Shown one piece after another: positions 5,269-24,838 of a DNA stretch of 34,415 nt. Numbering within the stretch: position 1 is the stretch's first letter; every line of letters starts with the position of its first letter. The notes under the pieces were generated by a model. It did no database searches and was not told where the DNA came from. It saw only the letters and a list, made by a program, of their open reading frames with translations. Source of the DNA: Bacteroidales bacterium (lineage in GTDB: Bacteria > Bacteroidota > Bacteroidia > Bacteroidales > UBA10428); assembly GCA_016936215.1 (NCBI GenBank), contig JAFGPL010000059.1, positions 1 through 34,415 on the forward strand, written 5' to 3'. A program made the translations under genes and the position numbers.

Positions 5269-5976
5269 CTATTTCTTCAGCACGGCTTTCATCACCTTTT
5301 CTTTTTCGAGCTGTTTGGTGCAGAAAAACCAGTCGTAACACTTTATATCCCCTTTGCTTTCCATTCTTTCTTTGGCAACACCGCATGATCCGGCTGTAGG
5401 AACGATTACCTCATCGCCCGGTCTCCAGTCGGCAGGCGTGGCAACAGAAAACTCATCTGCTGTCTGCAATGCAACCACAACACGGTACAGTTCATCAAAA
5501 TTACGGCCAAGGCTCAGCGGGTAGTAAATAATTGTCCTGATAATTCCCTTCGGGTCAACTACAAACACCGCACGAACCGCTTTGGTATTGCTTTCGCCCG
5601 GCATCATCATGCCGTACTTTTTCGCCACTTCCATGGTGATGTCTTCTATCAGCGGGAATTTTACCTCCACATCTTTCATGCCCTTGTACTCAATCTTTTC
5701 TTTGATGGTACGCAGCCATGCAATGTGGCTGTATAAACCGTCAACTGAGAGTCCGACCAGCTTACAATTCACATCGTTGAATTGTTTTTCCATAGATGCA
5801 AAGGTCATAAACTCAGAGGTACACACGGGCGTGAAATCGGCAGGGTGGCTGAACAATATCACCCAGCTTCCCTTGTAATCACCCGGGAAATTGATTTCAC
5901 CCTGTGTTGTAACGGCTTTGAACTCCGGCGCTTTTTCACCAATTCTCGGTAACGAAATAACTTGATTCTCTTCCAT
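5269..5976 (-). CDS. peroxiredoxin (AhpC/TSA, Prx6-like)
   Basis: A 235-residue cytosolic thiol peroxidase that reduces hydrogen peroxide and organic hydroperoxides. The peroxidatic site is HPADFTPVCTSEF with C52. The length and the C-terminal extension (RPGDEVIVPTAG) place it in the Prx6 group. Further cysteines near the C-terminus (GSCGVAKER, IKCYDWFFC) resemble those of archaeal and anaerobe homologues and may act as resolving cysteines. It lies 76 bp downstream of catalase on the same strand, so it may be the last gene of the fur-DUF454-catalase-peroxiredoxin group or have its own promoter in the AT-rich gap. Confidence 0.93.
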   Translation of the reverse strand: MEENQVISLPRIGEKAPEFKAVTTQGEINFPGDYKGSWVILFSHPADFTPVCTSEFMTFASMEKQFNDVNCKLVGLSVDGLYSHIAWLRTIKEKIEYKGMKDVEVKFPLIEDITMEVAKKYGMMMPGESNTKAVRAVFVVDPKGIIRTIIYYPLSLGRNFDELYRVVVALQTADEFSVATPADWRPGDEVIVPTAGSCGVAKERMESKGDIKCYDWFFCTKQLEKEKVMKAVLKK

Positions 5977-6052
5977 AATTAAAAATTTAATTTAAGTTAA
6001 TACTTGTTTGAATTATTGCTAAAATTTTTCATTTTCTCAATTACTCTTGATT

Positions 6053-7525
6053 TCAGGGTTTAAAGTTTACTTTAAGCCCTTCGGCCACTTTTTGTGCCAG
6101 CTCTTTGTCGGCTTTATAAAAATGCTGTAACTGGCGCTGAATGATCTCCTCCCTTTTCGGTCCGGTAATCCCGCTCATAGAACCTACGATATTACTAATG
6201 GTATTGGCACGTTCCTGTTCGGCCATTACTTTTCTGAAGAGCATACCAGGCTGTGTGAAATGATCGTCGTCGTTTTCGTTGCGGTCGAAATAATCGGCCC
6301 ATTCCGAATCCATCTTCTGTGGAGGGTCTTTGTAAGATTTATCTGCAACAATATCATCGAAACTGTTAGGGGCATAATTAGGCTTGTCATCGCCATTGCT
6401 GTCAGTACGCATATAACCATCTCGCTGATAATTGTTCACCTCGGTTATCGGCCTGTTAACAGGTATCTGTTCGTAGTTTACGCCCAAACGGTAACGATGG
6501 GCATCGGGATAGGACAGCAATCTCCCCTGCAACATTTTGTCGTACGAATACCCGATGCCGTCAACAACATGTGCAGGGGCAAAAGCTGCCTGTTCCACAT
6601 CGCGGAAATAGTTTGAAGGTATTTCGTTCAGCTCGAGGATACCAATATCCATCAGGGGGTAATCGCTGTGCGGCCAGACTTTTGTAAGGTCGAAAGGGTT
6701 CCAGTGGAACGATTTGGCCTGCTCGTCTGTCATTACCTGTATTTTCATGGCCCATTTCGGAAACTCTTTTCGCCCGATTGCTTCAACAAGGTCGCGTTGT
6801 GCCCAGTCCATGTCTTTGGCTTTCATTGCCTCGGCTTCGGGACCGGTAAAATTCTTAATGCCCTGTTGTGTTTTCAGGTGAAATTTCACCCACACCCGCT
6901 CGTTTTTGGCGTTGACCATCGAAAAAGTATGGCTTCCATAACCGTTGGTATGCCTGTAGCTGTATGGTGTCCCCCTGTCGCTGAAAAGTATCATCACCTG
7001 GTGAAGGCTTTCGGGGTTGAGTCCCCAGAAATCCCACATCATGGTCGGGCTTTTCAGGTTGGTTTTTGGGTCGCGTTTCTGTGTGTGAATAAAGTCACTG
7101 AATTTTTTCGGGTCTTTGATAAAGAAAACCGGGGTGTTATTGCCTACCAGGTCCCAGTTGCCATCTTCGGTGTAAAACTTAACTGCAAAACCCCGCGGGT
7201 CCCTTTCGGTATCAGCACTGCCTTTCTCACCACCTACGGTTGAAAACCTGATGAAAATACGGCATTTGTTACCGACTTTGCTAAAGATTTTTGCTTTGGT
7301 ATATTTTGTAATGTCATGGGTAACGGTAAAGGTGCCAAAAGCACCGGTACCTTTCGCATGCACCACTCTTTCGGGTATCCGTTCCCGGTTGAAATGGGCC
7401 ATTTTTTCATGCAGTATGTAATCCTGCAGTAAAATCGGGCCATGCGGGCCGACGGTCATACTATCTTCGTGCTCGAAGTATGGTTTGCCCGAAGCTGTAG
7501 TTAGTTTTTTCTTTTTCTCTGCCAT
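6053..7525 (-). CDS. katA: heme catalase (small-subunit, clade 3 type)
   Basis: A 490-residue monofunctional catalase that converts hydrogen peroxide to water and oxygen. The distal His lies in RERIPERVVHAKGTGAFG (H56), the conserved Asn in GNNTPVFF (about N129), and the proximal heme Tyr in LLSYPDAHRYRLG. The length is normal and nothing is missing. It starts 21 bp after the DUF454 stop, on the same strand as fur, so it is very probably under control of the Fur-family regulator two genes upstream. A catalase in a genome rich in labile Fe-S proteins suggests an anaerobe that meets transient oxygen. Confidence 0.97.
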   Translation of the reverse strand: MAEKKKKLTTASGKPYFEHEDSMTVGPHGPILLQDYILHEKMAHFNRERIPERVVHAKGTGAFGTFTVTHDITKYTKAKIFSKVGNKCRIFIRFSTVGGEKGSADTERDPRGFAVKFYTEDGNWDLVGNNTPVFFIKDPKKFSDFIHTQKRDPKTNLKSPTMMWDFWGLNPESLHQVMILFSDRGTPYSYRHTNGYGSHTFSMVNAKNERVWVKFHLKTQQGIKNFTGPEAEAMKAKDMDWAQRDLVEAIGRKEFPKWAMKIQVMTDEQAKSFHWNPFDLTKVWPHSDYPLMDIGILELNEIPSNYFRDVEQAAFAPAHVVDGIGYSYDKMLQGRLLSYPDAHRYRLGVNYEQIPVNRPITEVNNYQRDGYMRTDSNGDDKPNYAPNSFDDIVADKSYKDPPQKMDSEWADYFDRNENDDDHFTQPGMLFRKVMAEQERANTISNIVGSMSGITGPKREEIIQRQLQHFYKADKELAQKVAEGLKVNFKP

Positions 7526-7546
7526 AGTTTTGTGTTTTAATTTGTA

Positions 7547-7927
7547 CTAATTTTTTGAAATTGTGGGTAATATATATCCCATAACAACCGTTCCGATAAT
7601 ACCGGTAACCAGAACCAGAATTTTTACATAACCGGGTCGGATCAATAGTGTTACAGATACAAAGATCATTGCCCACATGAGTATAATAGAGTATATTTTT
7701 ACTTTTAGCGTCAATCCTTTTTTCTTTTGAAATTCAGAAATATAGCTTCCTATATAATGGTTATTTACCAGCCTTGAGTATAACTTATCAGAACTTCTGA
7801 TATATAAACCTGCAGTAAGCAAAATGAAAGGCGTTGTTGGCAAACCGGGTATAAAAATACCGGTAATGCCCAGCCCCAGCGAAAGGGTCCCCAGCACCAG
7901 ATAAATACCCTTAAGCATTTGGTTCAT
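7547..7927 (-). CDS. DUF454 (YbaN) family inner-membrane protein
   Basis: A 126-residue membrane protein. Near the N-terminus is the family signature LGTLSLGLGITGIFIPGLPTTPFILL, and further hydrophobic helices lie near residues 75-95 and 100-120. DUF454 proteins have no firmly assigned biochemical role. The gene overlaps the end of fur by four bases (ATGA), which implies translational coupling, and precedes catalase by 21 bp. Membership of a Fur-controlled peroxide-defence operon is therefore the main hint to its function. Confidence 0.85.
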   Translation of the reverse strand: MNQMLKGIYLVLGTLSLGLGITGIFIPGLPTTPFILLTAGLYIRSSDKLYSRLVNNHYIGSYISEFQKKKGLTLKVKIYSIILMWAMIFVSVTLLIRPGYVKILVLVTGIIGTVVMGYILPTISKN

Positions 7928-8355
7928 AAAGAATTCCTCTTTGTTTTAAATTTTCCGATGATCTGAAGTTTTAAATCTTCAATTTCAAAATTGGGGATAT
8001 GCTTCTTTTTAAAATAGTTAAAAAGCATTTCATTCAGGTCATTGTCAAAATAGTCTTCAATAATGTCGGAATCTGAACAATACAGGTGATGGTGGTTATT
8101 GATCACCGCATCGTAACGCATCACATCCTTATCGGTCTTAACCTTCTTGATCAGCCCTATTTCCACGTATGTTTCAAGAATCTTATATACAGTCCCGATA
8201 GCAATATTGGGATGATTATCTTTAATAAAATTGATGACCTCTTCGGCTGTGGGATGATTTTTAAGTTTGATCACGGCATCAAAAACAGCAATCCTTTGCG
8301 GCGTCACTTTTAAGCCGTTTCTGATAAGTTTCTCCCGTACTTCTGAAACACTCAT
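7924..8355 (-). CDS. Fur-family transcriptional repressor, PerR-like by context
   Basis: A 143-residue Fur-fold regulator. The winged helix spans about residues 15-85 (LKVTPQRIAVFDAV, HPTAEEVINFI, IAIGTVYKILETYVEIGLI). The metal-binding hinge has NNHHHLYCSDSD. The two CxxC pairs of the structural zinc site in many Fur/PerR proteins are absent, as in many Bacteroidota homologues. It heads a group with DUF454 and catalase, which suggests peroxide-responsive (PerR-like) rather than iron-uptake control. A palindrome 21 bp upstream, shared with the dps promoter, is its probable operator, implying autoregulation. Confidence 0.9.
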   Translation of the reverse strand: MSVSEVREKLIRNGLKVTPQRIAVFDAVIKLKNHPTAEEVINFIKDNHPNIAIGTVYKILETYVEIGLIKKVKTDKDVMRYDAVINNHHHLYCSDSDIIEDYFDNDLNEMLFNYFKKKHIPNFEIEDLKLQIIGKFKTKRNSL

Positions 8356-8547: not shown

Positions 8548-8892
8548 CTAATGATGATGCGCGCAAGTTTCACCAGAGTCGGTAACAGTGCCTTGCAGGT
8601 ATGCATTGACAACTTCATGTACATTGCCGGTGCATCCGCGTACAACCTGAATACCTGCTGCCCCGATTTTATTCACCGCGCCCTCTCCCATATTTCCGGC
8701 AAGCAGTAATGTTACACCCATATTTCTAAGCACCGTGGCAATATCAGATTTACAACCGCAACCTTCGGGTGAAGGAAGCAATTCAGTTTTTTCAATTGCA
8801 TTATCAACCGATACCGTGAAAATGGTGTAGTATTCACAATGGCCGAAATGTTCGTCAATCTTGTTATTTCTTGTCGGAAGCGCTATTTTCAT
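8548..8892 (-). CDS. NifX/NafY-fold (COG1433) putative metal-cluster-binding protein
   Basis: A 114-residue single-domain protein of the dinitrogenase iron-molybdenum cofactor family, to which the Mo-Cu orange protein of Desulfovibrio also belongs. It shows MKIALPTRNNKIDEHFGHCEYYTIF, then SPEGCGCKSDIA, a LLAGNMGEGA loop, GCTGN, and a C-terminal CAHHH. The extra Cys and His residues, more than in the two plus-strand paralogues, could ligate a metal or cluster. It follows dps by 18 bp on the same strand and precedes a strong terminator, so the two probably form one operon. No nitrogenase gene is present. Confidence 0.88.
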   Translation of the reverse strand: MKIALPTRNNKIDEHFGHCEYYTIFTVSVDNAIEKTELLPSPEGCGCKSDIATVLRNMGVTLLLAGNMGEGAVNKIGAAGIQVVRGCTGNVHEVVNAYLQGTVTDSGETCAHHH

Positions 8893-9460: not shown

Positions 9461-11149
9461 TTATTTTTCACGTGGATAATACCATGCGCTTAAACCGCCT
9501 TCCATAAGCTTAACATTTTTATATCCATGGGCTTGCAAAAGAACGGCGGCTTCATAACCCCTGAGTGATATTTTACAGTAAGTGATGATTTCTTTGTTTT
9601 TATCTTCAGGCAACTCATTCAGACGTTTACGCAGCATGCCAACAGGTATCTGTGTTTCTCCGGCACCCAGGCGCATCGCTTCGAATTCATCTGCACCACG
9701 TGTGTCCAACAGGAATATATCTTCTTTTTTATCAATCTTTTCCTTTACTTCCCTAACAGAAATACCTTTGAACAATCCCCTTATTTTATTCTGCATAATA
9801 TGAGCGGTGGCAATGCTGTGGTCAATCGCGAGAGAGAAGGGCGGGGCGTATGGCAAATCTGCATTAACCATATCTTCGACTTTAAGATTACCTTTGATAG
9901 CTGTAGCCCATATAGCTATTTGTTTGCTTACATCGCCGGGACCAACACATTGTGCACCAAGTATTTTACAAGTTTCCTTTTCAACAACCAATTTGGTAAC
10001 AAGAAGTTTACCCTGCATAAACCCCGGTTTATCTGGACTTGCGTTTACCACGGTTATTACTTCTTTTCCGGCTTTGGCAGCCCAGCATTCAGACAGGCCG
10101 GTAGCGCCGACATGATAATCAAATACTTTACAAATACCGGTTTGTATGGTTCCCGGAAACTTCACTTTATTGCCCAGAATTGCATTTTCACCGGCAACAC
10201 GGCCTTCAAGGTTTGCCAGGTCGCCATAGGGTGCAAGTACATTGTGCCCGGTAATAGTGTTCTTTATTTCGGTACAATCGCCCACCGCATAAATATCCTG
10301 ATCGGATGTTTGCATGTATTCGTCTACGAATATGCCACCTGCTTCACCGATTTTTAGTCCGGCATCTTTGGCAAGCATTGTATTGGGAAGAACACCGATT
10401 GCTACAACGGCCAGTTCACATGGTATCTCGGTTCCATTCTGGAGTTTAACAGCCGTTAACTTTCCGTTTTCCCCGATAAATTTTGCTACCCCATTGCCGG
10501 TAATCACATTGGCTTTGGTTTTTACATAGTTTTCAACCAGTTTGGCCAGTTCATAGTCGAGGAAAGCCAAAAGTTGTGGAAGAAGTTCTATAACGGTGAT
10601 TTCAATTCCTGCAAGGTTGAGCGCTTCGGTAGTTTCTATTCCAATCAGCCCGCCGCCGATCACCACTGCTTTTTTAATCTTTTTTTCATCGCGGATTTTT
10701 CTCAGGTAATCGGCATCCTGCATTGACTGCAGTGTCGTGATCCCGTCGAGGTCTATACCTTCAATCGGCGGCAGCTTTGGCCTGGCACCGCTAGCTATAA
10801 TAAGTTTATCATATTCGATGGTACCTGTTTCACCTGATTGCAAATCTTTAAATTCCACTGTTTTTTTATCCCTGTTGATCTTTGTTGCCTCGGTATTTAC
10901 TTTGGCTACAATACCCTTGGCATTCCAGTAAAACTTCGGATCGCGGACAACCCCGGTCGGAGTGCTTAACAACATATTTCTGTCATCAAAAAACCCCCCG
11001 ATATAGTAAGGGTACCCACACGATGCCATTGAAAGGTCAGGGCTTTTCTGCAAGAGGGTGATTTCAGCAAATTCATCCATTCTACGTGCCCTTGCGGCAG
11101 CTTTTGGCCCTGCCGCCGATCCGCCTATTACAACAATTTTTTTGTTCAT
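9461..11149 (-). CDS. CoA-disulfide/persulfide reductase with C-terminal rhodanese domain (CoADR-RHD)
   Basis: A 562-residue FAD protein. An N-terminal FAD Rossmann motif (VVIGGSAAGPKAAARARR) is followed by the single redox cysteine C44 in SMASCGYPYY, as in CoA-disulfide reductases and NADH oxidases. An NAD(P) motif (VVIGGGLIGIETTEAL), the FAD-binding YAVGDC and a dimerisation domain follow. Residues from about 460 form a rhodanese domain with active-site C525 in YCKISLRG. This fusion is known as NAD(P)H-dependent persulfide or polysulfide reductase, which reduces CoA persulfide and elemental-sulfur-derived species. The palindrome GAACATATGTTC lies 45 bp upstream of its start, between it and the divergent lipoprotein-DUF134 genes. 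Confidence 0.92.
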   Translation of the reverse strand: MNKKIVVIGGSAAGPKAAARARRMDEFAEITLLQKSPDLSMASCGYPYYIGGFFDDRNMLLSTPTGVVRDPKFYWNAKGIVAKVNTEATKINRDKKTVEFKDLQSGETGTIEYDKLIIASGARPKLPPIEGIDLDGITTLQSMQDADYLRKIRDEKKIKKAVVIGGGLIGIETTEALNLAGIEITVIELLPQLLAFLDYELAKLVENYVKTKANVITGNGVAKFIGENGKLTAVKLQNGTEIPCELAVVAIGVLPNTMLAKDAGLKIGEAGGIFVDEYMQTSDQDIYAVGDCTEIKNTITGHNVLAPYGDLANLEGRVAGENAILGNKVKFPGTIQTGICKVFDYHVGATGLSECWAAKAGKEVITVVNASPDKPGFMQGKLLVTKLVVEKETCKILGAQCVGPGDVSKQIAIWATAIKGNLKVEDMVNADLPYAPPFSLAIDHSIATAHIMQNKIRGLFKGISVREVKEKIDKKEDIFLLDTRGADEFEAMRLGAGETQIPVGMLRKRLNELPEDKNKEIITYCKISLRGYEAAVLLQAHGYKNVKLMEGGLSAWYYPREK

Positions 11150-11193: not shown

Positions 11194-11205
11194 GAACATA
11201 TGTTC
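11194..11205. promoter_or_regulatory. GAACATATGTTC operator, persulfide reductase/DUF134 divergent region
   Basis: A perfect 12-bp palindrome between the divergent start codons of the CoADR-rhodanese gene (11149, minus) and the small lipoprotein gene (11243, plus). The same 12-mer recurs at 25267-25278 and 33856-33867, with variants at 15741-15752 and 22957-22968. For the plus promoter it sits about 23 bp upstream of the -7 box, over the -33 region. Confidence 0.75.
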
Positions 11206-11218: not shown

Positions 11219-11226
11219 TAAATTTG
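11219..11226 (+). promoter_or_regulatory. Bacteroidota-type -7 box (TAAATTTG) for the lipoprotein-DUF134 genes
   Basis: TAAATTTG is an exact match to the Bacteroidota -7 consensus TAnnTTTG. It is 17 bp upstream of the lipoprotein ATG and about 23 bp downstream of the centre of the palindromic operator, so the operator would cover the -33 element. Confidence 0.5.
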
Positions 11227-11242: not shown

Positions 11243-11380
11243 ATGAAAATAAGAAAAATATTGACCATTCGAACCTTTTTGATGTTTTTTCTTTTGATAT
11301 TTTTTATATTGGCAGCAGGGTGCAGCCAGCAGAACAAATACAAATCTGTTCCCTGCCCCTGTGAAAAAAGAAATCGTTGA
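11243..11380 (+). CDS. small cysteine-containing lipoprotein (45 residues)
   Basis: A very short ORF: basic N-terminus MKIRKILTIRT, a hydrophobic stretch of about 13 residues, and the lipobox LAAGC with C27 as lipidation site. The mature part is only 19 residues (beginning CSQQNKYK) and ends CPCEKRNR. The paired cysteines (C38, C40) could bind a metal or form a disulfide. It has its own -7 box and operator and stops 9 bp before the DUF134 start, so it appears to be the first gene of that operon. The lipobox in the right place argues that it is real; the function is unknown. Confidence 0.6.
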   Translation: MKIRKILTIRTFLMFFLLIFFILAAGCSQQNKYKSVPCPCEKRNR

Positions 11381-11389
11381 TTGATATTT

Positions 11390-11809
11390 ATGCCAAACAG
11401 GAGAAGATACCGAAGAATCACCATGCCCCCGCCAATGGAGGGCTTTAAACCATTTGGGGTTCCTATGCGTAACCTTGAGCCTGTAGTGCTGCTTTTTGAA
11501 GAATATGAATCCTTAAGACTTGCAGATTATGAGAACCTTACACAGGAGGAAGCAGCTCAAAAAATGAATATTTCAAGGCCTACCTTTACAAGACTATACG
11601 ATAAAGCAAGAAAAAGCATTGCAAAAGCATTTGTTGAAGGAAAAGCAATTTTTATACAGGGAGGGAGCTATATTACTGATGATTACTGGTACCGTTGTCA
11701 TAACTGTCATGAAACAATGATAACCATGAAGCCTGCAAAAAGCTGCAGAAAGTGCGATTCTGAAGACATCATCCAGCTAAATGACAAAAAAGATGCAGAA
11801 GGAATTTAA
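11390..11809 (+). CDS. DUF134 (COG1342) predicted DNA-binding protein
   Basis: A 139-residue protein. ATG at 11390 gives the family-type start [15 protein letters not shown]. It continues with FKPFGVP and a sigma-70 region-4-like helix-turn-helix ([48 protein letters not shown]). The C-terminus adds a zinc ribbon with CHNC and CRKC. DUF134 proteins are often found next to COG1433 NifX-type genes in anaerobes and are assumed to regulate them. It is the only regulator encoded close to a GAACATATGTTC site in this window, so it is a candidate for controlling that regulon. It overlaps the next gene by 29 bp. Confidence 0.9.
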
Positions 11810-11966
11810 ACCGGATGAGTTTTGCATCTGCGTGCATTGTAATACGAAGATACCTCATGAAAAAGGGGTTCCTTGCAGAGAAAACAAATGTCCCAAATGC
11901 GGCCGCATAATGTTTAAAGAGGGCTCATACCATCATATGCTCTATCTTAATAAGGAAAAACGCTAA
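11781..11966 (+). CDS. small zinc-ribbon protein
   Basis: A 61-residue protein (57 if the internal ATG at 11793 is used). It has four cysteines in two knuckles, CVHC and CPKC, plus C14 and another Cys in VPCRENKC, and ends with [14 protein letters not shown]. This is a rubredoxin- or zinc-ribbon-like fold. Small proteins with the CPKCG...EGSxHH pattern are often encoded beside DUF134 and COG1433 genes. The start lies inside the end of DUF134, implying translational coupling. The metal and role are unknown. Confidence 0.75.
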
Positions 11967-12784: not shown

Positions 12785-15250
12785 TTAAAACGGTCTGTTC
12801 ATGTGCCGGCCTTTCATACGGTGCCGGCGTCCCCTATGCATTACCGGTTCATCATCATTTTCTCTTACCACAACTGTTTTGTAATTTAACATGTTCCCGA
12901 TTTTTATGCCGAAGTAAACAGTCCGGGGTGAAACAGGTCCGTAAATATAAGCTGGATCTCGGTTTTCACTGACATCAAAATCATCCTGGTAAGCATTAAA
13001 GATATTCTTAATGCCACCGGAAAATTCAACAGAAGCCCCGTTAAGCTTAATTCTGTATGTGAGTTTTGTCCCCAGGTCAAAAAAACTCTTTGATTCCCTG
13101 AGTTCACCTGCAGGATTTTCAGTGCCAAAATATGGTATTAACATGCTTCCGGTGTATGTGCCGGTGGCTGAAAAGCACAGGTTTTGGTAAATATCATAAT
13201 CAAGAACTACATATCCATACTGGTTGGGAGTGCGGAAAAACCTTTTTTCCGGAAATTCCTCCTGTGGGGATTCATAAGCGCTTTTCTGAACAGTAAACCC
13301 CGATGTTATGTTAAGTTCTTTACGGGGCTTTAGCTTCAATTCCATATTGATACCCTGGACTATAGCCCCGTCTTCTGCATTTATCCTGTATTTGGTGTAA
13401 ATACCATCAGTAAATTCAGCCGAATCGCTAAATGCATTTACCAGCCGGGTATAAAACCCTTCGAGCAGGAACCCTGCATAAACCTTACCGATGAGTTTAT
13501 TGAAATCTATTGATGCCATTATACTATGACTTGTTTCCTGTTTCAGGTCTGTGGCATTTTTATGTATAACCTGGCGAGAGCGCGATGTTAATATATGCAG
13601 GTCTTCGTCAAATATCTGTGGGGCGCGGTAACCCTGCGAGTAACAAAGGCGCGCCTGTAATTCGGGTAGAATATTATACATAAAACTTAACCTGGGACTG
13701 AACACGTTACCCGATGAGAGCACCCCTTCATCTGCCAGGTTGTTGACTTTATAGTGGTCAAACCTTGCACCGGCTGCGAACTTAAACTTATTTAGCCTGA
13801 TATCGTACTGCGCAAAAATTCCTGAAGTGATCAATGACTGGTCAGACACTATCGTATTGTTCGTATGGGTGTAATGAATGGTAGAGTCCGAAAAGTCAAT
13901 TTCTGCATTTTCAAGATCGGGAAACCCTAATTTTTTGTCAAGAAGAAAATCCCCGGTATGTTCAATACCAATAATAAACGATGAGGTATTGAGCAGGGTT
14001 TTATACTGTATGCCTAAATTATACGTATTGTCGGTTGATTTGCCGTAATCGCCGAGTGATTTACCAGCCCCATAATATGAATCACGGTCCAGGAACTGAC
14101 CGGATGCATATACCGTTAAGAGATTGTACTGCCTGAAATATCTTTCGTAAGTTATTCCGGCAACTTTCATATTATGTTCTACGGCTTCGGCCACATCTCT
14201 TTCGTGAAGCGGATATTCCTGCTTATTACCGCCGTTTCTTTCTTCGTTTATGGTGAAAAAATCTACAGAAAGTTTGTCGCGGTAACCGAACCTGTGAAAT
14301 AACCTTGCCCCGAAAGTAAGGTTTTCAAGTGGTGCAATTTCTGAAAAACCATCATTATTGGCATCGAACATTTCCCGGTCGCGTGTAAAACCGTATAATG
14401 ATATTCCCGATTTATGGTCGTCAGAAACAATTGAAGTATTAAAATTAACGGAATAATCAGGCACCATGGCTTCGCTGCCATCCATACCAATGCCTGTTAA
14501 AGCATAATTGGCCCCGCCTTCATACGAATTTAATTTCGGGTCTTTAAGTATAATATTTATAGTTCCTGCTATGGCATTGCTCCCGTATAGTGCAGAACCG
14601 CCGCCACGAACAATTTCAACTTTCTCTATCATATTAGAAGGAATAAGTTCTAAGCCGTATACACCGGCCAATCCGCTAAATATTGGCCGGCTATTTATAA
14701 GTATTTGGCTATAAGGTCCTTCCATGCCGTTCATGCGTACCTGCGAAAACCCGCAATTCTGGCAATTGTTTTCAAGGCGCAGGCCGGGTGAAAAATTCAG
14801 TCCTTCTCCCAATGTTGCCGATTGAGTGGTATTAAAAAGCTTCGGGGAAATTGTATTTACAATTACAGGGGCATCTGTTCTTTTTTGTTCTGCACGGTCG
14901 GCCGAAACAATAACTTCATCAATGTTTAAAACATCCTGTTGAAGCTCAAATTTAACTTCTGTGGTTTTTCCAGCCTCCAGAATTACAGTTTGTTCTTTTG
15001 GTTTATAGCCCAGAATGCTCACAAAAATGGTTTGTTCACCTGTTGGCAGGTTTACAAGCTGGTAATGTCCGGTTTCGTCAGTTACAGTTCCGATAGTTGT
15101 ACCCTTTAACCCTATAGTTGCAAACGGAAGGTGCTTTCCGCAACATACCACATGCCCGATTATATTGGCATCGGTTTTTGTTTTTTGGGAAAAACTTATA
15201 AGCGTAAATGAAGAGACTATTATGGTAATGATAAAATGAATATTTTTCAT
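12785..15250 (-). CDS. TonB-dependent outer-membrane receptor, probably for a metal
   Basis: An 821-residue receptor: signal peptide (1-21), a CarboxypepD_reg-like domain (about 29-105, GTTIGTVTDETGHYQL), a TonB box (IDEVIVSADR, about 110-119), a plug (about 125-240, VEIVRGGGSALYGSNAIAGTINI) and a beta-barrel to the end. The plug carries ENNCQNCGFSQVRMNG (C163, C166), and the first domain has a CC pair (C36-C37). The last residues are His/Met/Arg-rich (MHRGRRHRMKGRHMNRPF). Such Cys and His/Met features suggest copper, zinc or a metal chelate rather than sugar; no SusD partner is present. It follows a His-rich membrane protein by 103 bp on the same strand, behind a GAACATATGTTC-like site. Confidence 0.88.
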   Translation of the reverse strand: MKNIHFIITIIVSSFTLISFSQKTKTDANIIGHVVCCGKHLPFATIGLKGTTIGTVTDETGHYQLVNLPTGEQTIFVSILGYKPKEQTVILEAGKTTEVKFELQQDVLNIDEVIVSADRAEQKRTDAPVIVNTISPKLFNTTQSATLGEGLNFSPGLRLENNCQNCGFSQVRMNGMEGPYSQILINSRPIFSGLAGVYGLELIPSNMIEKVEIVRGGGSALYGSNAIAGTINIILKDPKLNSYEGGANYALTGIGMDGSEAMVPDYSVNFNTSIVSDDHKSGISLYGFTRDREMFDANNDGFSEIAPLENLTFGARLFHRFGYRDKLSVDFFTINEERNGGNKQEYPLHERDVAEAVEHNMKVAGITYERYFRQYNLLTVYASGQFLDRDSYYGAGKSLGDYGKSTDNTYNLGIQYKTLLNTSSFIIGIEHTGDFLLDKKLGFPDLENAEIDFSDSTIHYTHTNNTIVSDQSLITSGIFAQYDIRLNKFKFAAGARFDHYKVNNLADEGVLSSGNVFSPRLSFMYNILPELQARLCYSQGYRAPQIFDEDLHILTSRSRQVIHKNATDLKQETSHSIMASIDFNKLIGKVYAGFLLEGFYTRLVNAFSDSAEFTDGIYTKYRINAEDGAIVQGINMELKLKPRKELNITSGFTVQKSAYESPQEEFPEKRFFRTPNQYGYVVLDYDIYQNLCFSATGTYTGSMLIPYFGTENPAGELRESKSFFDLGTKLTYRIKLNGASVEFSGGIKNIFNAYQDDFDVSENRDPAYIYGPVSPRTVYFGIKIGNMLNYKTVVVRENDDEPVMHRGRRHRMKGRHMNRPF

Positions 15251-15353
15251 AAAATGCTTTGTTTAAAATATATTTAAAGTATTAAAAATGAAAGTAATAA
15301 TTTCCATTATTCATGGTGGAAATTATTCCATGAAATAAGAGCGTACTTTTAAA

Positions 15354-15716
15354 CTAAATTGCGGGTGGGGCCCTGCCATTCTGAAGATGCAGAATAAAGG
15401 GGTTTTGAAATGAAGGGGAATGAAGAAAAAAATTTGTAACGGAAAAAACAATGGTACTGATAAGCAAAAGAAAAACAGCCATATAAAGTATCTCGGCCTG
15501 TTGAATGCAAAAAAGTTCATTGCCGGAATGATGATGGGATTTTGTTGGCCCTGAATCGTTTGATTTATCGTACGGGTGTGCATGGACAAACACCGAACCG
15601 TTTGCATCCCTGTGCACATGTATATTTAAACTTTTGTTGACAATGACCACACCGGTAAGCAGGATAAGCAAAACGGCAACAATACGGATAATGGTATTTT
15701 TAAAGCTGTGGTTCAT
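15354..15716 (-). CDS. small His-rich membrane protein upstream of the TonB receptor
   Basis: A 120-residue protein with two hydrophobic helices (about residues 10-28 and 77-98). The loop between them contains IHVHRDANGSVFVHAHPYDK and SHHHSG, about eight histidines, probably facing the periplasm. Similar small proteins occur beside TonB receptors of this type in Bacteroidota; I know no assigned function. The His-rich loop suggests metal sensing or handing a metal from the receptor. Its promoter region carries a 10-of-12 match to GAACATATGTTC. The ATG at 15716 is the only plausible start and lies unusually close to the -7 box. Confidence 0.7.
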   Translation of the reverse strand: MNHSFKNTIIRIVAVLLILLTGVVIVNKSLNIHVHRDANGSVFVHAHPYDKSNDSGPTKSHHHSGNELFCIQQAEILYMAVFLLLISTIVFSVTNFFLHSPSFQNPFILHLQNGRAPPAI

Positions 15717-15723: not shown

Positions 15724-15752
15724 CAAAAGTAAAAACAAATTATCATATGTTC
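15724..15752 (-). promoter_or_regulatory. promoter with degenerate GAACATATGTTC operator for the His-rich protein/TonB receptor operon
   Basis: On the plus strand, TATCATATGTTC (15741-15752) matches the GAACATATGTTC palindrome at 10 of 12 positions. On the minus strand the -7 box TACTTTTG (CAAAAGTA at 15724-15731) follows, about 19 bp from the operator centre. The transcript would begin at or just before the start codon at 15716, so the mRNA may be leaderless. This is weaker than the other four sites. Confidence 0.45.
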
Positions 15753-16425: not shown

Positions 16426-18132
16426 TTATTCTGAAGGTTGCGTGATTAAAGGCTTATCCGTTTTAAGAGTGACTAATTGCTTTGCAATTTCAATTGCATC
16501 GCTGAATTTTTCAAAAACATTGGCCTTACCAATTAAGAATACTATGCGGCCCCTTACAAGATCTTGTCTTACAATTTCGTTTACGCCCGAGAGCATAACT
16601 TTTGTTCCTCCTGCCTGGATGTTTTTAATAGCCTCCCTCAAATTATGAATTCCTGTAGAATCAATAAAAGGTACATGCCTCATACGAATAATCAGTACTT
16701 TAGATTTTTGTCCGGTTGATTTCATTAATTCGCTGTATTCTTTAGCAGAACCGAAAAAGAATGGTCCGCTAACCTCAAATATCCCAATGCTTTTTGGAAT
16801 GTCTGAATAGTTTTCAGCAAGGTCAATATCGGGTTCGGCAATTGAATATTTACCTGCATCGGCCATACGTTTCATGAACAACAATGAAGAAAGGACTACA
16901 CCTATCTCAATGGCCACAGTGAGGTCTACCAAAACGGTTAAAAAGAAGGTGGTAAGCAGCACAATAATATCGAATACCGATCCGCGCAGGATGGAAACAA
17001 ATGACTTCCATTCACTCATGTTGTAAGCCACAACCATAAGGATTCCTGCAAGGCACGACATGGGTATAAGCCCTGCATATTTCCCGAAAAAGAGCATGAT
17101 AAGCAACAGGGTCAAAGCATGAACAATTCCTGCCACAGGCGTCCTTCCCCCGTTTTTTACATTGGTAGCTGTGCGTGCAATGGCCCCGGTGGCTGGTATA
17201 CCGCCAAAGAAGGGGGTCAGGACATTTGCTATCCCCTGGGCAATCAGCTCGGTATTTGACCGGTGTGTACTGCCAATCATGCCGTCTGAAACAACTGCGG
17301 AGAGCAAAGATTCAATGCCGCCCAGAAGTGCAATTGTGAGCGCAGGGCCCATGTATTCAGCTATATTTTCAATTTTTATCTGCGGAAGTGTTAATTTAAA
17401 ACCCGACGGGATATCACCAAAAACAGACCCAATGGTTGCAACATCAGCGCCCGAAAGATACACTCCTGTTGAGACCAGTATAATGGCAATAAACGAACCG
17501 GGGATTTTGGCGGTTATTTTTTTTGAAAACAAAGTAATAATGATGGTTACAAGGCAGATAAGAATTGATGACCAGTTCATATTACCGGCACTTGAAAAAT
17601 AATATGCCCATTTTTCAATAAATCCTGAAGGTACAGAACCGGTAAGGCCCATGGCATCTTTTACCTGGATGGAGAAAATAACCAGTGCAATACCGCTGGT
17701 AAAACCTATTACAAGCGGATGAGGGATGAATTTAAGAAGGGTGCCGAGTTTCAGTAACCCGAAGATAATTAATATTATTCCTGCCATCACGGTGGAAATA
17801 ATCAGCCCGTCAATGCCATATTTTTGGATAATGGTGTAAACAATAACCACAAAGGCCCCCGTGGGTCCGCCAATCTGAACACGGCTTCCCCCGAGAAGTG
17901 AAATGATAAAGCCTGCAATTACTGCCGTAACCAAACCTTTATCAGGAGATACGCCCGATGCCACTGCGAAGGCAATGGCGAGGGGCAATGCAACAATTCC
18001 TACTACAACTCCAGCGAAAATATCCGTGGTTAATTGTTTCCTGCCTATCAGATCATGCTGTACAAGGCTGATAATTTTTGGTTTAAAAATATATTTCACT
18101 TGTTTATTATTTAATCCTTTTTTTCCGGGCAA
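16426..18132 (-). CDS. SulP family anion transporter with STAS domain
   Basis: Up to 568 residues. The membrane domain (about residues 30-435) has SulP signatures: DIFAGVVVGIVALPLAIAFAVASG, GPTGAFVV and GGIPATGAIARTATN. The C-terminal cytoplasmic STAS domain contains MRHVPFIDSTGIHNLREAI. SulP proteins move sulfate, bicarbonate, molybdate or other anions; the substrate cannot be read from the sequence. The start is unclear: TTG at 18132 gives the longest form, and GTG at 18099 would put the start closer to FKPKI. It lies 99 bp after DUF169 on the same strand and may be a separate unit. Confidence 0.92.
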   Translation of the reverse strand: MPGKKGLNNKQVKYIFKPKIISLVQHDLIGRKQLTTDIFAGVVVGIVALPLAIAFAVASGVSPDKGLVTAVIAGFIISLLGGSRVQIGGPTGAFVVIVYTIIQKYGIDGLIISTVMAGIILIIFGLLKLGTLLKFIPHPLVIGFTSGIALVIFSIQVKDAMGLTGSVPSGFIEKWAYYFSSAGNMNWSSILICLVTIIITLFSKKITAKIPGSFIAIILVSTGVYLSGADVATIGSVFGDIPSGFKLTLPQIKIENIAEYMGPALTIALLGGIESLLSAVVSDGMIGSTHRSNTELIAQGIANVLTPFFGGIPATGAIARTATNVKNGGRTPVAGIVHALTLLLIMLFFGKYAGLIPMSCLAGILMVVAYNMSEWKSFVSILRGSVFDIIVLLTTFFLTVLVDLTVAIEIGVVLSSLLFMKRMADAGKYSIAEPDIDLAENYSDIPKSIGIFEVSGPFFFGSAKEYSELMKSTGQKSKVLIIRMRHVPFIDSTGIHNLREAIKNIQAGGTKVMLSGVNEIVRQDLVRGRIVFLIGKANVFEKFSDAIEIAKQLVTLKTDKPLITQPSE

Positions 18133-18231
18133 ACTTTTATCAAATATGGGGACTAAGTAATTTTTTAGCGTGAGAGCATACCCAGTCCATTTCTTTTAAA
18201 ATAATTAAAAAAGTGGGCAAAGATAATTTGT

Positions 18232-18846
18232 TTAGTTGTATAAACTTATCAGTTGCCGTGCAAATTTAAATGGAATTCCGATTACAACTTCACCGGGTTC
18301 AATACCACCATGAATGCGGGATTCGGGACATCCAAAAGAAATACTTATGGTATTGCCGCTGTAACAACGTGAAAAAACATTTCCGCAAACAGATAATAAC
18401 GAGTAGGGCGGCAGCATGGGCATGACTTCAAATTTTGCCTGGCTGTGAATAATCCCGGTTATATGTTCGGGTTTTAAATACATAATATAAAGATCGGGAG
18501 GTGTATCTTTCTCCATTAATTCTGTAATTCCGAGATTTATATGGGTAATATTTTTCAATACAGGGATTTGTGCCAGCGCTTTGTAAATATACTTTACAGG
18601 AATATCGTTGTTTTCAGCTATGGTCCCGGCAAGTGTGTTTTCATCCTTGTCAAAACCCATACACCTTCTGGCGCCCGGGCATACCAGGTTGTCGGTGTTA
18701 ATTCTTACAGGGATATCAAAAGAATGGAACACGGCCTCACAAAACTTCATTTTTTTTGTTGGCAGGTTAATAAATTCGTTCACCTCACCATTGACTTTAA
18801 CAGCAGTACATTTCGGTCCAAAGATTCGCTTTAATTCCTGTATCAT
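18232..18846 (-). CDS. DUF169 family protein
   Basis: A 204-residue protein with DUF169 features: an N-terminal TAVKVNGEV, FCEAVFHSF, and the cysteine motif VCPGARRCMGF, followed by HINLG and a conserved YSLLSVCGN...SFGCPESR segment with two more cysteines. Conserved Cys residues suggest metal or cluster binding, but the biochemical function of the family is unknown. It begins 15 bp after the KAS III gene, so it belongs to the same minus-strand operon as the disulfide oxidoreductase and TrmO. Confidence 0.85.
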   Translation of the reverse strand: MIQELKRIFGPKCTAVKVNGEVNEFINLPTKKMKFCEAVFHSFDIPVRINTDNLVCPGARRCMGFDKDENTLAGTIAENNDIPVKYIYKALAQIPVLKNITHINLGITELMEKDTPPDLYIMYLKPEHITGIIHSQAKFEVMPMLPPYSLLSVCGNVFSRCYSGNTISISFGCPESRIHGGIEPGEVVIGIPFKFARQLISLYN

Positions 18847-18861
18847 TTTATAATAATACCT

Positions 18862-19854
18862 TTAGTTATATGCCCATTTCAGATAAATGGTCCCCCAGGT
18901 AAAACCACCGCCAAATGCCGAAAGTATTAGTTTGTCACCTTTTTTCAGTTCTTTTTCTTTTTCCCACAGGCACAAAGGTATGGTTGCTGCTGTGGTGTTT
19001 CCGTATCTGTTTATGTTAATCATTATCTTGTCTTTGGTTAGTCCCATGCGGCGCCCTACCGATTCTATTATTCTCATATTTGCCTGGTGGGGGACAAGCC
19101 ATGCGAGTTCCTCATTGGAAATTCCGTGTTTTTTCATCATTTCCACAGAGGTATCAGCCATTTTTGAGACAGCCGTTTTAAATACGGGCTGTCCATCCTG
19201 GTAAATAAAATGTTCTTTTGCGTCAACAGTGGCATGTGATGCGGGCTTATAAGACCCTCCAGCCTTTAAATAGAGAAAATCTTTACCAGATCCGTCTATC
19301 TGAAGGTGATGGTCTATTACTCCCACATCTTCGGTGGTTACCTCAAGCAGCATTGCAACTGCCGCATCGCCAAAGAGTACACATGTAGAACGATCGGTAT
19401 AGTCGGTAATGGAAGACATTTTATCTCCTGCGACTACGATTACTTTTTTATTCCTTCCCGATTCGATAAACTGGGATGCCGTCTGCAATGCAAAGATAAA
19501 ACCTGAGCAGGCTGCACTGATATCGAATCCCCAGGCATTCTTAATACCGGCCTTTTCAGAAATTAAACAGGCAGTAGAAGGAAACATCATGTCGGGTGTT
19601 ATGGTAGCTACAACAATTAGCTCGATACTATCGGGATTTGTACCTGTTTTTTTTAAAAGCTTCTTTACAGCTTCAGCTCCCATGTCTGATGTGGCAAGTC
19701 CTTCACCCTTAAGTATCCTTCTTTCTTTGATGCCTACCCTTTGGGTTATCCATTCATCAGAGGTGTCTACCATCTTACTGAGTTCTTCATTGGTAAGAAT
19801 ATATTCAGGAAGAAATGCTTCTATACCTGTAATTTTCGCTCGAAATTTTTCCAT
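18862..19854 (-). CDS. fabH: beta-ketoacyl-ACP synthase III (KAS III)
   Basis: A 330-residue thiolase-fold enzyme that condenses acetyl-CoA or another acyl-CoA with malonyl-ACP to start fatty-acid synthesis. The catalytic triad is intact: C116 in DISAACSGFI, H256 in LVPHQANMR and N286 in NRYGNTTAATIPL. The length is normal. It is not beside plsX, rpmF or other fab genes; its neighbours are a DUF4405 membrane protein (16 bp upstream) and DUF169. It may therefore be a second, specialised copy; FabH homologues also start other acyl condensations. Confidence 0.93.
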   Translation of the reverse strand: MEKFRAKITGIEAFLPEYILTNEELSKMVDTSDEWITQRVGIKERRILKGEGLATSDMGAEAVKKLLKKTGTNPDSIELIVVATITPDMMFPSTACLISEKAGIKNAWGFDISAACSGFIFALQTASQFIESGRNKKVIVVAGDKMSSITDYTDRSTCVLFGDAAVAMLLEVTTEDVGVIDHHLQIDGSGKDFLYLKAGGSYKPASHATVDAKEHFIYQDGQPVFKTAVSKMADTSVEMMKKHGISNEELAWLVPHQANMRIIESVGRRMGLTKDKIMININRYGNTTAATIPLCLWEKEKELKKGDKLILSAFGGGFTWGTIYLKWAYN

Positions 19855-19870
19855 AAGTTCTATAAATCTA

Positions 19871-20626
19871 TCAGTTTTGTTTTCTTTGTTGTACCTGTAT
19901 AATTATTTCTTTTAATATTTCCATTTCAAAACCATATCTTTTTTTTAACCTGCCGATTTTTTCTGTTGAGGATGAAAGTGGTATATTCAGGGCGTTTGCA
20001 AGTTCTTCAGCCCGAACAGAATATTTTATGGCAGCTTCATTCAAGGTCATATAGCCGAATATTTCAATTTCGGAGTGTGCATGTGCTTTTTCCGGCAACT
20101 GCCGGTTTTGTGCAATTCTCCCTTCTTTTAATTCCCGGTGTACCTCTTTTGCCTTTTGTGCTACCGTATCTTTCAGAATTACCTCTTGTGCAGGGGAAGG
20201 TACTTCAATACCCCGTTTGTGGGCGTGTTGCCTTTCCAAGGCTACTACCTCGGGTTTTACAAAGAACGGTCCCACTGCAAAAATCATAATAATAGCAAGG
20301 ATAAAAATAATGATAACACCACGGGCCTTCTTTCTGGTGACCATTTTTTTGAATATAGCAGTAATAATTTTCCAGTGCAGGATGATATGCAGCAGGATGA
20401 AAAAAACAAACACGATACCGAGTACCAGGTGTATATCTCCCCATCCGTGCCGCGTAAGCCCCAGGAAATACAACTCATCATTGCTGCTGTAAAGCAAATT
20501 GCGCTTATAACCGGGAATAAGTGAATACTTTATCAGGAACCCAAGGGCTGTAATGGCCATTAACAATATCAGCAAAATGGCATCAATTGTCAGGTTTAGT
20601 CTTGATTTATCTTTTCCGGAAATCAT
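19871..20626 (-). CDS. DUF4405-type membrane protein, possible b-type cytochrome, with C-terminal soluble domain
   Basis: A 251-residue protein. Three hydrophobic helices lie in the first 125 residues: near 13-33, 66-86 (GDIHLVLGIVFVFFILLHIILHW) and 102-120. Histidines in helix 2 (IH and HIILH) could ligate heme as in DUF4405/cytochrome b561-like proteins. A charged linker (about 125-190) precedes a small C-terminal domain, IFGYMTLNEAAIKYSVRAEELANALNIP...RLKKRYGFEMEILKEII, like the helical module attached to redox membrane proteins. The likely role is membrane electron transfer, inferred. It lies between trmO and fabH with gaps of 18 and 16 bp. Confidence 0.7.
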   Translation of the reverse strand: MISGKDKSRLNLTIDAILLILLMAITALGFLIKYSLIPGYKRNLLYSSNDELYFLGLTRHGWGDIHLVLGIVFVFFILLHIILHWKIITAIFKKMVTRKKARGVIIIFILAIIMIFAVGPFFVKPEVVALERQHAHKRGIEVPSPAQEVILKDTVAQKAKEVHRELKEGRIAQNRQLPEKAHAHSEIEIFGYMTLNEAAIKYSVRAEELANALNIPLSSSTEKIGRLKKRYGFEMEILKEIIIQVQQRKQN

Positions 20627-20644
20627 TTGTAAATGATAGTATTA

Positions 20645-21130
20645 TCAGAAATCAAATCTTTTGTCAGCCTTTTGGGACGAAAAGCGATGTTTTGAACCGG
20701 TTAACCATCCCAACCGGATATTTTCAGCCGCATCAAAGTCCGGTATATAGGGTTTTATATCAAGAAGCGGTGTGCCATTTATAATATCCATATTCTCCAA
20801 ATGCAGGATATTTTGATCAACCTTCAACAACCTGACTACTGAAATGCCAATATTATTAGGTCTTCGCGGGGCACGGGTTGCAAAAACGCCATGTTTATTT
20901 TCATCAAGAAAAGGTTTTACTTCAAGCTGAAAAGCACCAGACAGGTGAAAGCAATACAGCAGCATAATGTGAGAGAACCCGTCTAAGTCTTTCAGTCCCC
21001 CTGCATATTCAGGATAGATTTCTGCGCTTCCTTTAATTCCTGTTCCTGATGAAGGTTGTATTGGTACATTTTCATTCTTGTCAAACGGTGAATGGATAAT
21101 GCCAATGGTATTAAACGTGAACGCTTTCAT
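20645..21130 (-). CDS. trmO: TrmO (TsaA/UPF0066) tRNA t6A37 N6-methyltransferase family
   Basis: 161 residues from the ATG at 21130 (FTFNTIGIIHSPF). A start at 21181 would overlap the upstream gene by 29 bp and add a non-family tail. The diagnostic motif is GVFATRAPRRPNNIGISVVRLL, followed by DGTPLLDIKPYIP-like sequence (NGTPLLDIKPYIPDFD). The family uses S-adenosylmethionine to methylate N6-threonylcarbamoyl-adenosine 37 of tRNA in Escherichia coli. Homologues in anaerobes and archaea often sit in metal or redox clusters, so a different substrate is possible here. It is 22 bp downstream of the disulfide oxidoreductase. Confidence 0.88.
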   Translation of the reverse strand: MKAFTFNTIGIIHSPFDKNENVPIQPSSGTGIKGSAEIYPEYAGGLKDLDGFSHIMLLYCFHLSGAFQLEVKPFLDENKHGVFATRAPRRPNNIGISVVRLLKVDQNILHLENMDIINGTPLLDIKPYIPDFDAAENIRLGWLTGSKHRFSSQKADKRFDF

Positions 21131-21152
21131 AGAAACAGGTTTATGAAGATGC

Positions 21153-22514: not shown

Positions 22515-22543
22515 TCTTCATTTACTTTTTAATTCCTAGAATA

Positions 22544-22924
22544 TTAAGCTTCTATTATATCTTTAATTTCGAACATGTTCCCACTTTTATCCCAGATAAA
22601 ATAGGTGTTATGACTGACATTTTGCTTAACAAATGTTTTATAGCCGCGATCAAGGGCATTATGATATGTAATTTCTGCTTTCCAATATGCAAGACAAACA
22701 TGTGCGAATAATTTATTCTCTTTTTCTTCGCAGACAAATAATTCAAAATCAGTGTTCTGATGGTTCATGAAGTAAACATCAGTTGATCCTTTCAGGTTAA
22801 AAATATTCAAGGAATTTTCTTCACTGAGTGAGTATTTATTTTTATAACTGAATAGCAGAACACCTTCGTAGAAATCTTCAATTTCTTCCTGGTTATTTAT
22901 TGTAAGCGCAATATGTTGTAACAT
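22544..22924 (-). CDS. VOC-fold (glyoxalase-like) protein
   Basis: A 126-residue single-module protein. It begins MLQHIALTINNQEEIEDFYEGVL, the first half of a vicinal-oxygen-chelate repeat, and ends with YFIWDKSGNMFEIKD, the matching C-terminal strand. Candidate metal ligands are H4, E62-E67 region residues, H75 and the late E122. VOC proteins include lyases, dioxygenases and binding proteins, so the reaction is open. It is the first gene of the long minus-strand operon, with a -7 box (TAATTTTG) about 20 bp upstream and the operator just behind it. Confidence 0.7.
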   Translation of the reverse strand: MLQHIALTINNQEEIEDFYEGVLLFSYKNKYSLSEENSLNIFNLKGSTDVYFMNHQNTDFELFVCEEKENKLFAHVCLAYWKAEITYHNALDRGYKTFVKQNVSHNTYFIWDKSGNMFEIKDIIEA

Positions 22925-22945: not shown

Positions 22946-22995
22946 CAAAATTAAATGAACTTTTGTTCATATTAAAATTATTTAGACTAATTTTG
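22946..22995. promoter_or_regulatory. divergent promoter pair around the operator ATGAACTTTTGTTCAT
   Basis: The operator at 22955-22970 has the same half-sites as the GAACATATGTTC palindromes (ATGAAC and GTTCAT) but a TTTT core. A minus-strand -7 box TAATTTTG (CAAAATTA at 22946-22953) faces the VOC operon. A plus-strand -7 box TAATTTTG (22988-22995) faces the MBL-permease-panD operon, 14 bp before its ATG. One regulator at this site could control both operons. Confidence 0.7.
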
Positions 22996-23788: not shown

Positions 23789-23797
23789 TCATTGACG

Positions 23798-24823: not shown

Positions 24824-24838
24824 TTTAATTATTCAATT

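Follow-up and report, generated by a model that had tools for sequence, protein, structure and literature searches.

DUF134 as a predicted repressor of its own gene and of a metal- and Fe-S-related regulon in Bacteroidales

The DUF134 protein encoded in a 34,415-nt stretch of a Bacteroidales genome (GCA_016936215.1, contig JAFGPL010000059.1; the whole stretch is referred to as the window) is, with high probability, a dimeric repressor that would control its own gene and a regulon through the palindrome ATGAAC-N4-GTTCAT (here GAACATATGTTC). That DUF134 is the protein acting at the GAACATATGTTC sites, as the original prediction had suggested, is very probable and strongly supported by comparative data, namely the sites upstream of 82/151 DUF134 genes, the co-occurrence of site and family across genomes, and the joint changes of helix and operator. 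The sites, their positions, their co-occurrence and the covariation were computed, and from these we infer binding, dimerisation and repression rather than activation. In the proposed mechanism, a dimer of DUF134 (UPF0251/COG1342) would read the ATGAAC half-sites of the 16-bp palindrome with a sigma-region-4/DeoR-type HTH. It would occupy the promoter in the spacer of the -33 and -7 elements, or overlap them, so that RNA polymerase is blocked. Its own gene would be repressed in this way together with COG1433, DUF5320, MinD/Mrp-type Fe-S ATPase, MBL/ArsP-permease and PanD genes. As a hypothesis, a metal, Fe-S or thiometallate signal, received by the Cys4 ribbon, a COG1433 partner or both, could lead to de-repression.

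We thus propose DUF134 as a one-component repressor, composed of a DeoR/sigma-4-type HTH and a ribbon, of a new regulon, parts of which resemble the orp (orange protein) locus. The family, detected in 155 of the 295 genomes sampled from the order and also in other phyla, would gain a putative binding site and a set of listed targets, and with them a likely mode of action and a tentative code of recognition. In its listings, the literature search, which covered neither RegPrecise nor subscription journals, found no function, regulator role or operator for DUF134/UPF0251/COG1342/PF02001 and no match for GAACATATGTTC; judged by title, the papers that name DUF134 do so incidentally. One apparent mention, in PMC10434189, concerns DUF1349 and not DUF134.

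The DUF134 gene and the palindromic sites of the window

The open reading frame list gives three ORFs, all on the plus strand, at 11243-11380, 11381/11390-11809 and 11781-11966. The features at and around them are as follows.

9461-11149, minus strand: CoA-disulfide-reductase-like protein with a rhodanese domain, divergent from DUF134 (Pfam/NCBIfam)
11194-11205: exact 12-mer GAACATATGTTC, predicted operator of the DUF134 unit
11219-11226, plus strand: predicted -7 box TAAATTTG (TAnnTTTG) of the DUF134 unit, 25 bp from the operator start
11243-11380, plus strand: 45-aa ORF with lipobox-like LAAGC, conservation not seen
11390-11809, plus strand: DUF134 (PF02001), predicted regulator of 139 aa (Pfam, ATG start)
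11570-11614, plus strand: recognition-helix stretch, residues 61-75 of DUF134 (sequence and AF2 model)
11696-11755, plus strand: Cys4 ribbon of DUF134, C103-C106...C119-C122, candidate sensor (alignment)
11781-11966, plus strand: 61-aa protein with a second ribbon, its ORF sharing 29 bp with the 3' end of DUF134

The DUF134 start is most likely the ATG at 11390, because MPNRRR... resembles the MPRPKR... of relatives. The protein matches PF02001 over profile positions 7-97 of 98 (E 9.9e-25, 87.4 bits against a cut-off of 27), and the Sigma70_r4 model barely above its threshold (24.4 versus 24.1 bits). C103, C106 and C119 are invariant across 66 aligned sequences, with C122 as the fourth Cys, so the earlier description of a sigma-region-4-like HTH followed by a CxxC...CxxC ribbon holds. 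A single DUF134 gene was detected in the source genome. The window gave no Rfam match at the gathering threshold and no tRNA.

The three genes had been predicted to form a lipoprotein-DUF134-ribbon mini-operon. The arrangement of three plus-strand ORFs stands, the lipoprotein as a conserved gene does not: a short lipobox ORF lies immediately 5' of just 2/151 DUF134 genes, the window's own included, and the closest relative (L184) has an in-frame stop within the stretch matching the 45-aa ORF. This candidate component was therefore rejected and left out of the mechanism; the ORF is probably a leader or a remnant. The 61-aa ribbon protein has no Pfam family and only a weak, below cut-off NCBIfam match to RNA polymerase subunit P. 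It seems to be part of the DUF134 system, as predicted, since 33/151 relatives carry such a second ribbon within DUF134 itself, as a fusion (pattern match).

A palindromic site beside DUF134 had also been predicted, and GAACATATGTTC is found as an exact copy 37 bp 5' of the 45-aa ORF and 184 bp 5' of the DUF134 ATG. The window contains three exact copies (11194, 25267 and 33856) and two near copies (22957, GAACTTTTGTTC; 15741, TATCATATGTTC), which most likely correspond to the five sites of the original prediction. Allowing up to 2 mismatches to GAACATATGTTC, nine matches are found against 1.69 expected, a number reached in 0/100 shuffles. The three exact copies are the only ones in the 5.3-Mb source genome (reversed control, 1). 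The pattern GAACNNNNGTTC is not enriched genome-wide (65 versus 57 for the control), with 4/65 occurrences in the window. The remaining sites and the units next to them are listed below.

8548-8892, minus strand: COG1433 (Nitro_FeMo-Co) protein of a neighbouring unit (Pfam)
15741-15752: half-degenerate site GAACATATGATA on the minus strand, before a DUF2946-like gene; box offset 21, uncertain
16426-22924, minus strand: likely target unit of site 22957, extent inferred
22957-22968: predicted operator GAACTTTTGTTC, 16-mer ATGAACTTTTGTTCAT, between divergent units (box offsets)
23009-25183, plus strand: likely target unit of site 22957, with MBL-fold hydrolase, ArsP_2-type permease and PanD
25267-25278: predicted operator of the COG1433 operon, in the 16-mer ATGAACATATGTTCAT from 25265
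At 25290: -7 box TATTTTTG of the COG1433 operon, offset 23 from 25267
25323-31384, plus strand: predicted target operon of site 25267
33856-33867: exact 12-mer with poor flanks (AC..TT), box offset 30

The 33856 copy is a possible, though uncertain, operator of a Fib_succ_major lipoprotein gene. Further downstream, an intergenic hairpin at 34053-34119 (29-nt arms, 97% complementary, 9-nt loop) is nested in a 20-nt inverted repeat (34007-34026/34139-34158) and is possibly a REP-like element. On other contigs of the source genome, further 16-mer sites were found in a cluster with COG1433, PanD and Mrp (Pfam, BLAST) as well as NadA and FeoA/FeoB by eye (L370), near TrmO and a ChrR-cupin protein (L369) and near a contig end (L368).

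Recurrence of the site and its link to the DUF134 helix

The sample comprised 151 distinct DUF134 genes of the order Bacteroidales with at least 150 bp upstream, from 150 loci (one pair overlaps), in which all exact inverted repeats with arms of 4 and spacers of 0-12 were counted, with no motif preset. GAAC-N4-GTTC was the top inverted repeat in the 150 bp upstream, found at 82/151 genes, versus 1/149 in windows 600-750 bp downstream and a shuffle mean of 0.1. With arms of 5, TGAAC-N4-GTTCA ranks first (76/151), and these counts together lead to the 16-mer ATGAAC-N4-GTTCAT as the consensus. A second set of named records, partly from the same genomes, has GAAC-N4-GTTC within 250 bp in 46/80 DUF134 loci. 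Six further genomes from other groups were considered: all six DUF134 genes of four of them (Neomarinimicrobiota, Calditrichia, Cloacimonadota and Ignavibacteriales) carry the repeat, while those of the Chloroflexota (L283) and Spirochaetota (L284) genomes lack it. None of five site forms, four of them picked post hoc, occurs within 200 bp of 39/151 DUF134 genes. Among the 14 closest relatives (L184-L197), GAAC-N4-GTTC lies 5' of DUF134 in four, within the stretch examined, and six of the other ten have it 0.5-3 kb downstream. A clear palindrome of the proposed kinds precedes 4/16 Chloroflexota and about 10/30 Spirochaetota DUF134 genes; the Spirochaetota PTLT/PTFT proteins L284, L313, L314, L318 and L321 have no such palindrome upstream. 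Two DUF134 copies contain an in-frame stop (L132, G172:C11:348167-348460, TAA; L286, G299:C82:5818-6042, TGA) and are probable pseudogenes or sequencing errors, the second keeping its operator upstream.

The co-occurrence of motif and family was assessed in 295 genomes of the order, of which 155 have DUF134 (153 over the cut-off) and 98 the exact 12-mer. The 12-mer is found in 69/155 genomes with and 29/140 without DUF134, and was dropped as a stand-alone test in favour of the 16-mer, because most inspected copies sit in coding sequence: 23 of 30 loci fall inside ORFs of at least 100 aa and seven are intergenic. All nine inspected loci from genomes without DUF134 are inside ORFs, and all seven intergenic copies are in DUF134-positive genomes, where they lie near DUF134 in five cases, near the ribbon gene in one and near a MinD gene in one. 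In 11 of the 30 loci (L005, L010, L011, L013, L016, L018, L020, L021, L024, L030 and L032), the site is within an ORF of about 800-835 aa, which may be one conserved coding stretch. The 16-mer ATGAACWWWWGTTCAT, in turn, has 88 sites versus 6 for the reversed pattern, and is present in 58/155 genomes with DUF134 versus 6/140 without (Fisher p 4.5e-13). When 30 loci were picked by the 16-mer alone, DUF134 was within 450 bp in 16 and some protein family of the window in 21, with four sites inside ORFs.

The presence of the motif in genomes lacking DUF134 had been named beforehand as an observation that would speak against the regulator. Such genomes do hold the 12-mer, but the inspected copies are coding; the 16-mer is rare there, yet it is present. 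Four of the six DUF134-negative genomes with a 16-mer were inspected (G157, G199, G019 and G010). In G157, it precedes a Cys/Met-metabolism enzyme gene, and a similar gene is the target in the DUF134 locus L211; in G199, a small gene that is COG1433-like by eye; and in G019, a MarR gene. In G010, no ORF above 60 aa begins within 300 bp.

It is very improbable that the 12-mer copies of the window are chance or coding coincidences without function. The many copies inside ORFs, 11 of them in the 800-835-aa ORF, would fit this explanation, as would the weak flanks or spacing of 33856 and 15741, for which it is possible. For the class of 11194, 22957 and 25267, it is contradicted by the upstream enrichment (82/151 versus 1/149) combined with fixed promoter spacing, and the gene neighbours of the seven intergenic copies also argue against it.

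DUF134 genes were further grouped by the residues of the recognition helix SRxTxxR, with variant site forms defined after viewing the sites. GAACn4GTTC is upstream of 53/73 genes with a PTFT helix, 18/27 with PTLT and 6/8 with PTFS. GAGCATATGCTT-type sites accompany ATFG (6/6) and QTFG (2/4), GAGA or GAGC forms some PTFA/ATFA helices, and GCACATATGTGC the STFS helix in 2/5 Bacteroidota genes. In Chloroflexota, ATGAGCATATGCTCAT-type sites occur in 4/16 genes, each with an xTFQ helix. In Spirochaetota, QTFG goes with TTGGGCATATGCCCAA-type sites (4), PTFT/PVFT/PTLS with GAACn4GTTC (5) and STFS with ATGCACATATGTGCAA (1). The trend across phyla thus pairs PTFT/PTLT with GAAC, xTFA/G/Q with GAGC, GGGC or GAGA, and STFS with GCAC.

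Among symmetric sites, from a set of 199 genes of which 115 have a candidate site, base 3 of the half-site is A in 82/85 cases where helix position 6 (T67 in the window) is T or S, and G in 12/12 where this residue is A, G or Q. After clustering at 60% identity, the pairings are 24/26 and 4/4 (p 5.5e-4). A helix-masked tree shows five changes of helix class against 11 of operator class, with a G half-site in six T/S-helix proteins; three supported independent pairs go mostly in the expected direction and never in the opposite one (sign test p 0.25, where 0.05 is unreachable). Operator and helix therefore appear to change together, as a tendency that extends across phyla.

This tendency bears on whether the palindrome is read by a different regulator (LexA-like, Crp/Fnr-like or the Fur-family protein encoded nearby) and DUF134 is only a frequent target. 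GAAC-N4-GTTC resembles the Gram-positive LexA box, a Fur-family gene is present at 7924-8355, and in L193 DUF134 follows an ORF that by eye resembles a Crp-type HTH end. An operator that tends to track the DUF134 helix would not be expected of another binder, nor would the rarity of the 16-mer in genomes without DUF134, its proximity to DUF134 in 16/30 loci, and the presence of the site at DUF134 genes of Bacteroidota, Spirochaetota and four further groups. We consider this explanation quite improbable, and LexA as the binder was set aside with it.

A search of PDB sequences gave no full-length DUF134 match; the best relative, at a weak E of 0.016, is the B. subtilis DeoR DNA-binding domain, whose helix NISRPTVSRL aligns with the DUF134 recognition helix. 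The original prediction had regarded an HTH of this type on a palindrome as unusual, a view that DeoR does not bear out, since it has a very similar helix and its DNA-binding domains bind TTGAACA half-sites (PMC11229326). According to the same source, DeoR is a repressor, its operator is ATTGAACAAAATTTCAATTACCAATTTACATATGTTCAA and overlaps the promoter, the base contacts lie in 5'-TTGAACA-3', and R34 and R39 are named; by spacing, their equivalents in DUF134 would be R63 and R68. In an AF2 model from 66 sequences (mean pLDDT 86.1, pTM 0.70), the alignment of the HTH with DeoR-DNA 7bhy covers 39 residues at 0.7 A (36% identity), and that with sigmaE region 4 bound to DNA (2h27) covers 43 residues at 0.5 A. 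Foldseek found no match to the model at E 0.001 or better, its top rows (MCM, HypA) being discarded at rmsd of about 9-13 A, and all VIA Z-scores were below 8. On its own, the fold match would be weak evidence; what counts is that helix and half-site are shared.

DUF134 shares the HTH fold and the SRPT helix with the DNA-binding domain of DeoR (SorC family; PDB 7bhy, 8r7y) and a half-site similar to TTGAACA, the DUF134 half-site coming from comparative genomics and not from binding. Unlike DeoR, it lacks the C-terminal sugar-phosphate effector domain (no Pfam/NCBIfam match over cut-off in the 139 aa) and instead has a ribbon after the HTH; a conserved N-terminal region, together with the Cys4 ribbon or a COG1433 domain, sets it apart. 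Its 16-bp palindrome contrasts with the 39-bp two-part operator of DeoR, and the regulons differ. The HTH fold is likewise shared with ECF sigma region 4 (E. coli sigmaE, 2h27; VIA Z 6.7 at 4.2 A/62), and the sigmaE -35 motif is GGAAC. However, DUF134 has a palindromic operator and no region 2: only region-4 models were found, and the 139 aa consist of N-terminal region, HTH and ribbon. It is thus not a sigma factor.

Promoter geometry and direction of regulation

In 79 instances with a relaxed -7 box, and in 73 with the strict TAnnTTTG and enough flank, the distance from the operator start to the box downstream is exactly 14 bp. These 73 were selected for their -7 box, and the -33 TTTG-like element upstream is largely retained in them (T.64 T.74 T.84 G.51); their logo agrees with the Bacteroidota -33/-7 promoter consensus. 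Further classes are found at offsets of 22-25 (second) and 31 (third). DUF5320 targets with a box show offsets of 14 and 23, and other window-family targets 14/15, 23 and 31. No -7 box was found for 14/59 DUF134, 3/16 DUF5320, 5/18 other-window and 24/47 unlabelled target sides. In the window, the 22957 site is at offset 15 to a minus-strand box (22946-22953) and 31 to a plus-strand box (22988-22995), a bidirectional layout that recurs in L188 and L373. The 11194, 33856 and 15741 sites, at 25, 30 and 21, fit the offset classes less well. The 9461-11149 side of the 11194 site has no TAnnTTTG box, and whether this divergent gene is controlled by the site is uncertain.

An operator in the spacer of an otherwise normal promoter, with the -33 element kept, is in a repressor position, and the fixed distance, mostly between -33 and -7, points to DUF134 as an auto-repressor. 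Alternatively, DUF134 could bind the palindrome and activate transcription in a class II or MerR-like manner. The 13 sites at offsets 22-26 extend over the position of the -33 element, and only one of them has a TTTG/TTG-type word upstream; sites lacking a -33 word resemble activator-dependent promoters, and fixed spacing would fit a contact with RNA polymerase. Activation is nevertheless unlikely, given that the main class of 73 sites largely keeps its TTTG-like element at the usual distance from the -7 box, the operator lying between the two, that 22957 and four of the six offset-31 window-family targets have TTTG inside the operator, and that auto-repression is the simplest reading.

Predicted regulon, candidate sensors and relation to the orp locus

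For the repressor thus proposed, a regulon was counted from 139 distinct sites in L184-L263 and L338-L387. The 119 intergenic ones have 140 first genes next to them, which are DUF134 (59), DUF5320 of both types (16), other window families (18) and unlabelled genes (47). The DUF134 share is inflated, since L184-L263 were chosen for DUF134, and the 16/30 of the loci picked by the 16-mer is the fairer figure. The 18 other-window genes comprise MBL, ARMT1-like and COG1433 (3 each) and nine further families once each. The Pfam scan of 30/43 distinct unlabelled targets revealed thioesterases in five cases, often encoded divergently next to DUF134, phosphoribosyltransferase-domain proteins in three and Fer4_8 proteins in two, besides single cases of MoeA, FeoA, radical SAM/BATS and others; no recA/lexA-type family is among the matches listed (25 of 46 Pfam families). 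By annotation, the theme of the predicted regulon is Fe-S, metal and sulfur handling, and the putative targets elsewhere match families of the window (DUF134, DUF5320, COG1433, ARMT1-like, MBL/ArsP and PanD).

The predicted operon at 25323-31384 encodes COG1433, DUF5320, COG1433, ARMT1-like, two MinD-type ATPases with Fer4, Mrp, radical SAM and peptide deformylase (PDF) proteins. The best NCBIfam match of the radical SAM protein (29929-30864, plus strand) is the viperin model, at E 4.9e-15 and 55 bits against a cut-off of 180. The unit at 16426-22924 encodes a 126-aa uncharacterised protein, a pyridine nucleotide-disulphide oxidoreductase, TrmO, DUF4405, FabH-like, DUF169 and SulP proteins.

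With a COG1433-type protein, paired MinD-Fer4 ATPases and Mrp (25323-29932), the operon is like the orp locus of Desulfovibrio vulgaris, which, according to PMC6345978, has two proteins with two Fer4 motifs each and an Mrp/MrpORP partner, and whose operons run from sigma54-dependent promoters. In contrast, the window operon has putative DUF134-type operators at ordinary Bacteroidota promoters, and DUF5320, ARMT1-like, radical SAM and PDF genes in addition. No adjacent sigma54-dependent regulator was found among the 40 window proteins scanned, which are part of its ORFs. DUF134 would thus supply a candidate regulator for COG1433/MinD-Fer/DUF5320 clusters beyond the sigma54-controlled Desulfovibrio case, which makes the signal of orange-protein-like systems directly testable.

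The Cys4 ribbon and COG1433 are the candidate signal sensors. The ribbon follows the HTH in 136/151 DUF134 proteins and is absent from 10/10 ATFG/QTFG members; eight of these ten still have a site, so it is probably dispensable for the predicted DNA binding. COG1433, which in known relatives binds Mo-Cu-sulfide or Fe-S clusters (PMC6345978), neighbours DUF134 in 96 of 121 cases, counted in loci that extend about 3 kb to either side and less far at contig ends, bearing out the claim that the two are commonly found together. It is fused to DUF134 in 6/151 (HFG pattern), as confirmed by Pfam in the three candidates scanned (L208, L256 and L347). The window COG1433 genes are those at 8548, 25323 and 26124. 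That DUF134 would be a cross-phylum master repressor of an orange-protein-like metal-sulfide/Fe-S system, with COG1433 as cluster sensor in cis or in trans and a two-residue code, is a tentative and rather doubtful extension. If true, so simple a code would make operators predictable from sequence across bacteria and perhaps archaea. The PF02001 search also matches two methanogen control genomes, three of the four matching controls being over the cut-off.

Two other gene groups of the window are worth describing. At 12785-15716 (minus strand), the DUF2946-like gene (E 7.8e-4, below cut-off) is followed by an ORF that is TonB-dependent-receptor-like by eye; with the half-degenerate 15741 operator in front, the two may make up a unit for metal uptake within this regulon. 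The peroxiredoxin, catalase, DUF454 and Fur-family genes at 5269-8355 (minus strand) form a peroxide-defence cluster, adjoining the metal/Fe-S cluster of Dps-like ferritin, COG1433 and CoA-disulfide-reductase-like genes.
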